Below are positions 15,709 to 20,206 of a DNA stretch of 50,261 bases, piece by piece (the stretch's first letter is position 1; each line of letters begins with the position of its first letter). Under the pieces are notes generated by a model. It searched no databases, was not told the origin of the DNA, and was given only the letters and a program-made list of their open reading frames with translations. The DNA is taken from positions 1-50,261 of the forward strand of contig JAJDUK010000059.1 of assembly GCA_022826665.1 (NCBI GenBank). The letters are read 5' to 3'. This DNA is from Alphaproteobacteria bacterium. Lineage in GTDB: Bacteria; Pseudomonadota; Alphaproteobacteria; UBA828. The translations under genes and the position numbers were made by a program.

Positions 15709-15876
15709 GCGCCGCCGTCCTCCGCCACGCTGCCCCTCTTGCGGCGGACGATAGGGCGCAGCGGCACGGGCGTAAACCGACGAGCCTCTGTAACGCCGGC
15801 GGGCTACCCCTGGTCGGCGTTTCCCGATAATGATGGCCTCCCTGCCACGTCCTGCGAATGGGCCGAGTAAGTGGTG

Positions 15877-18576
15877 ATGACCGACCGTTTCGAATTCGAC
15901 CGGGTGGCCCGTCTTCCGGCGGCGGGCGATAACGTCGCGATCGCGACGCGGCGCCTGGAGGCCGGCACCCGCGTCACAGACGGGACGGGTGAGTTCCGCC
16001 TGCCCCACACGATCCTCGAAGGGCATCGCTTCGTCCGCGTGCCGGTCCCGCAAGGCACGCAACTCACCTCCTGGGGGCTCCCCTTCGGCATCGCGACCCG
16101 TGCGCTGAAACCCGGCGAATACGTCTGCAACCAGCGGATTCTGACAGCGCTCGCCAATCGCGACATCGACTTCGCGCTGCCCGATGCCGCCAACTTCGTG
16201 GACACCATGGAGACCTACTCGCTGGACGAGGCCTGCTTCATGCCGGGCGCGCAGGTCGCGCCTGCCGATGAGGGCGCCACCTTCGAGGGCTTCCGCCGCC
16301 CCGGCGGGCGCGGCGTCGGCACCCGGAACTTCGTCGTGGTGCTGGCCACCACGTCGCGCGCCAACGGCTTCGTGCGCGCGGTCGCGGGCCGCGCTGCGGC
16401 CAAGGCACCCGCCGGCATCGACGGCGTGGTCGCGGTCACCCATACCGAAGGCGGCGGGGCCGGTCGGCCGAACAACCTGGATCACGTGCTCCGGGTGCTC
16501 GCGGGCTTCATGGTGCACCCCAACGTGGGCGCGGTGCTCGCGGCCGACGACGGCGCGGGCGCCTACACCAACGACGATCTACGGCGCTTCATGGCGGACC
16601 GCAGCGACCCGCTCGACCACGTGCCGCACGCGTTCTTCCGTATCGAGGGCGGATTCGAGGCGGAGGTTGCGCGCGCGGCTGGACTGATCGAGGGCTGGCT
16701 GCCCGAGGTCGCGGCCGCCACGCGCACGCCGGAGCCGGTCGGTACGCTCCGACTCGCGCTGCAGTGCGGCGGCTCGGACGCGTTCTCCGGCGTCTCCGGC
16801 AACGCGCTTGCGGGCTGGGTGGCGAAGGAGGTCATCCGGCACGGGGGCGCCGCGAACCTGGCCGAGACCGACGAGCTCATCGGCGCCGAGTCCTACGTGC
16901 TGGAGAACGTCCGCGACGCCGCCACCGCTCGCGCGTTCCTGGACAAGATCGAGAACTTCAAGCGCTACGCGGCGAACCACGGGGCCACGGCGGAAGGCAA
17001 TCCCACGGGCGGGAACAACTTTCGCGGTCTCTACAACATCGCCCTCAAATCCCTCGGTGCCGCGCGCAAGAAGGCGCCGGAGGTCCGGCTCGACCACGTC
17101 ATCGACTACGGCGCGCCCATGCGCGAGCCGGGCTACTACTTCATGGACAGCCCAGGCAACGACCTGGAGAGCATCGCGGGCCAGGTGGCGGCGGGCTCCA
17201 ACCTCATCCTCTTCATCACCGGCAACGGCTCGATCACCAACTTCCCCTTCGTGCCGACGCTCAAGTTCGTGACCACCACCGGGCGCTTCGAGCTGCTCGC
17301 GAACGAGATGGACGTGAACGCCGGCCGCTACAACGACGGCATGGAGATGGACGCGCTCGGCGCGGAAACCTTCGAACTCGCGCTCGACATCGCGTCCGGG
17401 CAGCGCAGCAAGGGGGAGCTTGCCGGCCACGCCCAAGTCTCGATTTGGCGCGACTGGCCGCGCACCGGCAGGGACGGGCTGGAAGAGGCGCGCAGGCGTC
17501 CTGTCCCGAGCGGACGGCCTATACCGGTACGGCAGGCGCCGCCGCTCGACCTCGCCTTCGACGCGATGGTCACCGAGGATGGCGTAGCGTCGGATCAGGT
17601 CGCGCTGGTGATGCCGACCAGCCTCTGCTCCGGCCAGGTCGCCCGCCTCATCGCCGACGAGCTCGATGCCAACCCACCACCCTGGAGCGACGTGTCGCGC
17701 TTCGTGGCACTCGTGCACACCGAGGGCTGCGGCTCGGCCAACGGCGCCGGCCTCTACCTCGATACCCTCACCGGACACCTCGCGCACCGGAGCGTGCGCC
17801 ACGCGGTGCTGCTGGAGCACGGCTGCGAAATGACCCACAACGACGCGGTGCGGAATCATCTGGCCGCGCACGGCGTCGCGGCGGACCGCTTCGGCTGGGC
17901 GAGCGTGCAACTGGACGGCGGCATCGCCAGCGTGCAGGCCAAGGTAACCGGACAGATCGAGGCGATGGCGGCGGCCCGCGCCGCGCCCGCATCCGAGCGG
18001 CGGCGCGTCGGTGCAGACGAGATGCGCGTGGGCCTCGCTGCACACGGCCCGCTGCCGGACACGATGGCGGAGGCGTTTGGCCGGCTTGCGACGGGTCTCG
18101 TTGCGGCCGGCGCGACCGTGGTCGTGCCCGACAACGAAGGACTGCTCGGCAACGACGGGTTCCGACGTTCCGTCTTCCCCAATGGCATGAAGTCCTCTGC
18201 CTCGCTCGCGTTCGGCCGACCGGCGGCAGTAGCAGGATTCCACGTCATGGAGACTCCGACGGAGAACCCGGTGGAGACGTTCACGGGCCTTGGTGCGACC
18301 GGGGTCGACTTGATGCTCTGCCACGCAGGCCAGACCCCGCTGCAGGGGCATCCCATGCTCCCCCTCGTCCAGGTCACGTCCGTTCCCGAGGTCGCGGCGC
18401 AGTACGGCAGCGACCTGGATCGCGTCCTGGCGCCGGAGCAGAGCATCGAGGGGACGGTCGCCGCGTTGGCTGCGCTGATCGCCGACGTGGCGTCCGGCCG
18501 CTATCGGCCGGCGCTCTGGTCGCGCGGGGTCACCGAGTTCCAGCTCACCCGCGGCAGGCTCGGTCTCTCGCTGTAG
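15877..18576 (+). CDS. Double-length UxaA/altronate-dehydratase-family protein
   Basis: An 899-residue protein of the UxaA/GarD sugar-acid dehydratase family, which normally measures ~500 residues. Residues ~15-110 form a SAF-like domain. Residues ~145-525 form a UxaA body ([34 protein letters not shown] at 296-309, [27 protein letters not shown]). Residues ~570-890 look like a second copy of the body ([21 protein letters not shown] at 614-623, [11 protein letters not shown]). The first copy has lost the HTEGC and GCE cysteines (HTEGGG 189-194, DDGAGAY) but keeps CGGSD. The second keeps the former and lacks CGGSD. ATG 15877 is preferred over in-frame GTGs at 15871/15874. It is followed 19 nt later by a GMC oxidoreductase, suggesting a dehydrogenase-dehydratase pair for an acid or polyol. 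Confidence 0.85.
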
Positions 18577-18595
18577 CGGCCGCGTGGAGACGCGC

Positions 18596-20206
18596 ATGGC
18601 AGCCCCGGAAGCGCTCGACGGCCGCTACGACTACATCGTCGTGGGCGCCGGCACGGCCGGATGCGTGCTCGCCAATCGCCTGACCGAAGACCCACGGACC
18701 CGCGTGCTGCTGCTCGAAGCCGGCCGCAGCGACGCCTACCACTGGGTCCATATCCCCGTGGGCTATCTCTACTGCATCGGCAACCCCCGCACCGACTGGA
18801 TGATGAAGACCGCGCCCGAGCCGGGCCTCAACGGGCGCAGCCTGGTCTATCCCCGCGGCAAGGTGCTGGGCGGCTGCACCGCGGTCAACGGCATGATCTA
18901 CATGCGAGGCCAGGCGGCGGACTACGACCACTGGCGCCAGCTCGGCAACCTCGGCTGGGGCTGGGACGACGTGCTGCCCTACTTCCTCAAGTCGGAGGAC
19001 CACCACGCCGGGGCGAGCCCGATGCACGGCACCGGCGGCGGTTGGAAGGTCACGACGCAGCGGCTGAGTTGGGAGATCCTGGAAGCGGTGCAAGAGGCCG
19101 CCAAGGAGTTCGGCATCGAGCCTCGCGCCGACTTCAACGACGGCGACAACGAGGGCTCGGGCTTCTTCGAGGTGAACCAGCGCAACGGCGTGCGCTGGAC
19201 CACGGCGAGCGGGTTCCTCAAGCCGGCGATGAAGCGGCCCAACCTGCGGGTCGTCCTCCAGGCCGAGACCGAGCGGCTGATCCTCGAAGGCCGCGCGATG
19301 CGCGGCGTGGTTTATCGGCACAAGGGCACCCGGCGCCAAGTGCGCGCCGAAGCCGAGGTGCTGCTGGCCGCAGGCTCGATCAACTCACCCAAGATCCTGG
19401 AGCTTTCCGGGATCGGCCAGCCCGTGCGGCTCGCCGGGCTCGGTATCGAGGTGTCGCACGAGAGCCCCGGAGTCGGCGAGAACCTGATGGATCACCTGCA
19501 GATCCGCACGGTCTACGGCGTGAGCGGCGCGACGACCCTGAACACGCTCGCGAACAGTTTCTGGGGAAAGGCGGGCATCGTCCTCGAATACGCGTTGCGC
19601 CGGAGCGGGCCGATGTCGATGGCGCCGAGCCAGTTCGGCATGTTCACGAAGTCCGACCCCGCGCTCGCCACGCCCGACCTGGAGTATCACGTCCAGCCGC
19701 TCTCCACCGACCGGCTGGGCGATCCGCTCCATCCCTACCCCGCCATCACGATGTCGGTCTGCAACCTGCGCCCGGAGAGCCGGGGGAGCTGCCACGTGAC
19801 CACCACAGACCTCGCCGCGCAGCCCGAGATCAAGCCGAACTATCTCTCGACCGCCCACGACCGCCGCATCGCGGTCAAGTCCGTCGGGCAGGTCCGACAG
19901 ATCATGGCGGCCAGGGCGCTAAAGCGTTACGCGCCGAAGGAGCTTCTTCCCGGCCCCGAGGTCCGGTCCGACGAGGACCTTGTGAAGGAGGTCGGCAACA
20001 TCGCGACCACGATCTTCCACCCGGTGGGGACGTGCAAGATGGGCGATGACCCCAACGCGGTGGTGGACTCGGAGCTGCGCGTGCACGGGCTGAAGGGCCT
20101 GCGCGTCGTCGATGCCTCGATCATGCCCCGGATCACGTCGGGCAACACCGCCTCGCCGGTCATCATGATCGCGGAGAAGGCCGCCGACATGATCCGCGGA
20201 ATGTAA
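18596..20206 (+). CDS. GMC-family FAD-dependent oxidoreductase (choline/alcohol dehydrogenase-like)
   Basis: A 536-residue GMC flavoprotein that oxidises a primary or secondary alcohol. The Rossmann motif [18 protein letters not shown] lies near the N-terminus (GAGTAG 17-22), and GMC signature 1 is around [18 protein letters not shown]. Signature 2 is [16 protein letters not shown]. The C-terminal catalytic region holds [10 protein letters not shown] and [21 protein letters not shown], which provide the His and the Asn. ATG 18596 has GGAG 6 nt upstream and is preferred to GTG 18584. It starts 19 nt after the UxaA-like gene, so co-transcription is likely. It resembles BetA-type dehydrogenases, but nothing restricts the substrate to choline. 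Confidence 0.92.

Follow-up and report, generated by a model that had tools for sequence, protein, structure and literature searches.

A fused pair of UxaA/GarD-type dehydratase bodies with complementary residue losses as a candidate single-chain pseudo-dimer

In this study, we found that one gene of an Alphaproteobacteria bacterium encodes two copies of a UxaA/GarD-type body, duplicated behind a single SAF domain, with complementary losses of conserved residues in the two halves. The gene lies in a window of 50,261 nucleotides, which is the whole stretch of DNA analysed (GenBank assembly GCA_022826665.1, contig JAJDUK010000059.1). The product is probably a single-chain pseudo-dimer of the UxaA/GarD dehydratase family, in which the losses are divided so that one complete iron site would remain. 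The idea of a duplicated dehydratase with a site shared by its halves had been put forward in a first-pass annotation of this DNA, and it is supported by sequence comparison, in which the same partition appears as separate alpha and beta genes in two further lineages.

The fused gene occupies positions 15877-18576 on the forward strand, which also carries all other features of the window given below, and is open throughout, encoding 899 residues from an ATG start without a stop. With the upstream GTG at 15871 as the start, the product would be 901 residues long. Pfam analysis of the whole protein identified a SAF domain at residues 18-83 (PF08666; 15928-16125), which also matched the structures 3k3s and 3laz with Z of 13-14, followed by two copies each of GD_AH_second and GD_AH_C. 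Half 1 contains domain 2 (GD_AH_second) at residues 138-278 (16288-16710) and domain 3 (GD_AH_C) at residues 290-527 (16744-17457). A linker of about residues 528-554 (17458-17538) joins it to half 2, which extends from about residue 555 to the C-terminus at 899, with its domain 2 at residues 577-698 (17605-17970) and a degenerate domain 3 at about residues 708-892 (17998-18552). When half 2 (555-899) was scanned alone, GD_AH_second (E = 5e-11) and GD_AH_C (E = 3e-9) were both above the curated Pfam cut-offs. The half-2 and half-1 profiles aligned end to end in hhalign (99.7%, E = 5e-27, 328 columns). These profile and Pfam matches bear out the earlier reading of two UxaA-like bodies in 899 residues. 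Ordinary relatives of 500 amino acids matched well to half 1 only. Both Pfam domains (each twice), the GarD fold and a SAF domain in cis place the protein in the UxaA/GarD superfamily (COG2721). Against TIGR03248, the galactarate dehydratase equivalog, it scored 183.5 bits and fell below the required 730.85, compared to 940.6 bits for E. coli GarD. A gene for a GMC-family oxidoreductase (18584-20206) begins 8 bases past the fused gene; it is a possible operon partner, with the linkage retained in the nearest relatives only.

We then compared conserved residues in an alignment of 83 fused sequences from many phyla with those of 31 ordinary enzymes (E. coli UxaA, GarD and 29 others). Four cysteines and no others were invariant in the fused family: C297 of half 1 (QCGGSD; codon 16765-16767) and C584 (PTSLCSG; 17626-17628), C618 (HTEGC; 17728-17730) and C650 (EHGCE; 17824-17826) of half 2. 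They align with E. coli UxaA C264, C132, C166 and C199, respectively. In the ordinary enzymes, the C166 column was Cys in 30 of 31 and the other three columns in 31/31. A previous report on D-arabinonate dehydratase, a brown and EPR-active enzyme, showed that its cysteines 134, 173, 208 and 276 are conserved superfamily-wide except in sulfolactate sulfo-lyase, and described them as probable iron sites (PMC6336799). By this alignment, the invariant cysteines of the fused family are the same residues as those proposed there for iron binding. No single body of the fused protein holds all four, one being in half 1 and three in half 2, and the set is complete in the whole chain only. Since the pattern is invariant in all 83 homologues, it does not represent decay.

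The partition also covers other residues. Half 1 has lost the three putative metal cysteines of domain 2 together with GCE and the Gln corresponding to UxaA 225, while the fold of this domain is retained; HTEGGG (189-194; 16441-16458) is a Cys-less form of the HxxGC motif, and DDGAGAY (224-230; 16546-16566) is a Cys-less form of GLGCE. Its domain 3 has intact catalytic motifs and is the slowest-evolving domain, and the R-N pair of GTRN is retained. As half 1 keeps this pair and loses the cysteines, GTRN may act together with domain 3 in the same body. Half 2 retained all three domain-2 cysteines, GCE and Gln, but three elements that are invariant in 31/31 ordinary enzymes are missing from it: CGGSD, the NPSPGN loop and the catalytic Lys of domain 3. 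The residues [10 protein letters not shown] (719-728; 18031-18060) stand where CGGSD should be. Exceptions to the partition were sought across the fused sequences and none was found: the domain-2 motif windows of half 1 were always Cys-free, and CGGSD never occurred in half 2. The complementary motif loss described in the first-pass annotation therefore holds throughout the alignment, and its quoted motifs (HTEGGG at 189, DDGAGAY at 224-230, CGGSD at 297-301, HTEGCG at 614, HGCE at 648 and the residues at 719-728) are present in the protein. Homologues with all motifs in both halves, which it had named as the contrary case, were absent from the fused family. It gave C618 the wrong number (C617), and of the three domain-2 cysteines in half 2 it recognised two, missing C584 and likewise the loss at this position in half 1, which has R161. 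Separately, we observed that at residues 653-654 (window 17833-17838), beside C650, an Opitutales clade has Pro at 654 with a joint change at position 329 in domain 3 of half 1. This is possibly a coordinated active-site shift in that one clade.

Duplicated enzymes often diverge in specificity, and both halves are conserved and well folded in the models, so that each half could have become an enzyme specialised for a substrate of its own. We regard this as very improbable, because half 2 has given up just those three elements that are invariant in ordinary enzymes and no domain of the protein evolves faster than domain 3 of half 2.

The structures of the halves were then modelled. The full-length model had a mean pLDDT of 90.4 and a pTM of 0.92, and its residues 5-530 matched GarD (6u7l) with Z of 41.5 and an rmsd of 2.9 over 439 residues. 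The model of half 2 alone (pLDDT 90.5, pTM 0.90) matched residues 114-520 of 6u7l with Z of 27.1 over 298 residues. The first-pass annotation had considered that half 2 might turn out to have no UxaA-like structure; it is GarD-like. When half 2 was modelled alone, pLDDT fell below 50 at the Cys618 loop and the C-terminus, and the corresponding blocks reached 71 and 77 in the full-length model. This gain is weakly consistent with half 1 contacting half 2, given that the alignments differ between the models.

The assembly that contains the window is a draft in 106 contigs, and a lost stop joining two genes or a chimeric contig could in principle produce such a gene as a relic or artefact. This has a negligible probability and is refuted by conservation: relatives at full length and in one open frame, at 42-91% identity, are spread over many phyla, some of them coming from isolates (Rubrobacter, Pantoea soli), and more than 150 alignment columns of the fused family are conserved at 95% or more. 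These relatives were found in the same genus as the window organism and in Gammaproteobacteria, Chloroflexota, Poribacteria, Latescibacterota, Gemmatimonadota, Acidobacteria, Verrucomicrobia (Opitutales), SAR324 and Rubrobacter. The genes of Rubrobacter indicoceani and Pantoea soli are plasmid-borne. The fused gene was sparse in Chloroflexota (3/301 genomes), and among 398 sampled Pseudomonadota genomes no copy was found except in the window's own genome. A Caldilineaceae genome (G452, locus L144; contigs C70 and C66) carried two diverged copies. The neighbourhood was not conserved, with no neighbour family recurring in more than 9 of the 81 fused loci, and it was therefore dropped as a guide to the substrate. 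Some loci contained genes typical of sugar-acid pathways (2-hydroxyacid dehydrogenase, DHDPS-like, HpcH-like, FAH or KDG permease) in no consistent set.

The same division of residues was found between separate genes. We designated as alpha a body without the three domain-2 cysteines and with domain 3 intact, and as beta a body with the cysteines retained and domain 3 degenerate. A half-2 profile search of Chloroflexota identified adjacent alpha/beta gene pairs at L184:6152-8670 and L185:5011-7574. The beta proteins of both pairs have a domain 3 degenerate by S267Y and by loss of GN and Lys. They retain the domain-3 cysteine (CGGYD and similar), and thus the split in Chloroflexi concerns other domain-3 residues. 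Five further Chloroflexi genomes had apparently one paralogue each (four beta-only and one alpha-only). If the site is composite, a partner should be found elsewhere in each genome, and the expected type was fixed before the search. The predicted type was found in four of the five, as an unlinked alpha in G604, G708 and G636 and an unlinked beta in G692; the search for an alpha partner in the beta-bearing genome G660 found none, which counts against a composite site. Three SuyB-like control genomes had a single copy each. The Chloroflexi pairs are thus adjacent in two genomes (L184, L185) and unlinked in four (L204-L206, L213).

A plasmid search with the alpha protein identified haloarchaeal operons of three overlapping genes in the order alpha-SAF-beta (L192:6001-8671; also L193, L194, L195, L197 and L198), in Haloterrigena, Halomarina, Haladaptatus, Halarchaeum and Halomicrobium. 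All are annotated merely as 'UxaA family hydrolase'. Four operons (L192-L195) were checked residue by residue. Their alpha proteins have A/T/T or A/T/I where the three cysteines belong, and their beta proteins keep all three cysteines; these beta proteins have other residues in place of CGGSD and, like half 2, lack the NPSPGN loop. No published description of the haloarchaeal operon or the Chloroflexi pair was found in the part of the open-access literature covered. The recurrence of the split in haloarchaea and Chloroflexi suggests a general rule for how this family builds its iron site.

Cysteines can also be lost in this family by another route. SuyB-like large subunits (L178-L183; CGESD, no domain-2 cysteines) adjoin a small SAF gene and have no beta partner. 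This counts against a shared site, since it indicates that a Cys-less alpha body can be part of a working lyase alone, and sulfolactate sulfo-lyase is exempt from the four-cysteine rule (PMC6336799). Half 1 might accordingly be an independent cysteine-free lyase of the SuyB type, with half 2 as a metal-binding regulatory or scaffold appendage outside catalysis. We consider this quite unlikely. What domain 2 of half 2 has preserved, while domain 3 of that half decays, is precisely the catalytic-site set (three Cys, HGCE and Gln), and half 1 has the full ordinary domain-3 set, whereas the SuyB-like genes have CGESD and other changes. Unlike in SuyB, a second, cysteine-bearing body was always fused to half 1 (83/83), and the same alpha/beta pairing recurs in the two further systems. 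The rates of evolution also differ. Ordinary enzymes had a domain-3/domain-2 divergence ratio of 0.85; the three alpha types lay below it (0.55-0.65) and the three beta types above it (1.30-1.86), in small groups of 3 to 19 sequences, and the alpha-type shift was absent from SuyB (0.91). These ratios indicate selective constraint on domain 3 in alpha and on domain 2 in beta, as a composite site requires.

We next examined how the split forms are related. Alpha and beta were 59% identical in Chloroflexi and 33% in haloarchaea, and the two halves of the fused protein were 20% identical. The Chloroflexi alpha and beta clustered together (bootstrap 98). The split in Chloroflexi thus looks local, with other placements of beta still allowed by the smaller data set alone. 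AU tests rejected a common origin for the alpha types (p = 2e-10 for all alphas as one clade; p = 0.0008 to 0.0045 for each pairwise alpha grouping). As the alpha types are not one clade, they arose repeatedly. AU tests on beta groupings, including a single beta origin, gave no resolution. Across the fused homologues, half-1 and half-2 distances were correlated (r = 0.89), with half 2 evolving faster. Partial correlations of the domain distance matrices in the fused family were not discriminating. An apparent covariation of half 1 domain 3 with half 2 domain 2 (such pairs being enriched 2.4x in the top 100) was discarded, as it vanished once 11 sequences belonging to a single clade were left out.

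In the proposed composite site, domain 2 of half 2 would give three putative Cys ligands (C584, C618 and C650) with the conserved EHGCE and Gln. Domain 3 of half 1 would give C297, which is the fourth cysteine of the family, along with the residues for substrate and acid-base roles in CGGSD, ETDE, NPxxGN, K391 and MDSPGND. Domain 2 of half 1 and domain 3 of half 2 would be left over as structural elements that keep the pseudo-dimer together. The two residue sets would meet in one cavity and bind iron, and the predicted reaction is dehydration of an aldonate or aldarate to a 2-keto-3-deoxy acid, probably by beta-elimination of water. The FAH-family hydrolase and 2-keto-3-deoxygluconate permease genes beside the Pantoea gene fit the predicted sugar-acid dehydration. 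The shared site might also be formed between chains of a higher oligomer and not between the halves of one chain. GarD is a homodimer, and the separate alpha and beta chains elsewhere make cross-chain assembly natural. We consider such an arrangement unlikely in the fused protein, where fusion makes an in-chain pseudo-dimer simplest and the full-length monomer model has a high pTM. By extension, the cysteines of one subunit would work with domain 3 of the other in ordinary enzymes. We lean towards the view that iron-dependent UxaA/GarD enzymes build the iron site across the dimer, where one subunit would contribute three Cys and its partner the CGGSD side, and that in at least three lineages a symmetric dimer with two sites independently became an asymmetric alpha/beta pair with one site, the pair being fused into one chain in the window's family.

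The loss pattern resembles a natural complementation experiment: in an iron enzyme family that is poorly understood, it assigns each conserved residue to one of two sets and allows the surfaces forming the active site to be predicted. It predicts that ordinary UxaA and GarD act across the dimer interface, and that many proteins annotated simply as 'UxaA family hydrolase' need a specific partner for activity. If the same asymmetry evolved repeatedly, the family would be well suited to studying the passage from homomer to obligate heteromer to fusion.

D-altronate dehydratase UxaA and D-arabinonate dehydratase are iron-containing enzymes of one superfamily, with four conserved cysteines reported (PMC6336799). 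They share Pfam domains and the motif set with the fused protein, but they are single bodies of about 500 residues or fewer with no complementary loss. The D-galactarate dehydratase GarD of E. coli has the same order of SAF, domain 2 and domain 3; half 1 matches it, and half 2 matches its domains 2-3. Its cysteines at 144, 179, 215 and 288 occupy the same four positions; however, they all lie in one body, whereas those of the fused protein are split 1 + 3 between two. In SuyAB, the sulfolactate sulfo-lyase, and other heteromers of a SAF protein and a large subunit, SAF is on its own chain, indicating that splitting is tolerated, and SuyB lacks the domain-2 cysteines, but there is a single large subunit and no second body bearing the missing cysteines. 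To our knowledge, the UxaA/GarD family has no described case of a metal site divided 1 + 3 between paralogues. Complementary pseudo-dimers of other families, such as pairs of catalytic and non-catalytic paralogues and fused double-domain glyoxalases, form one site from two diverged copies and have unrelated folds. The haloarchaeal operon and the Chloroflexi pair have the same complementary partition as the fused protein, but in separate, unfused proteins whose alpha types are phylogenetically distinct.
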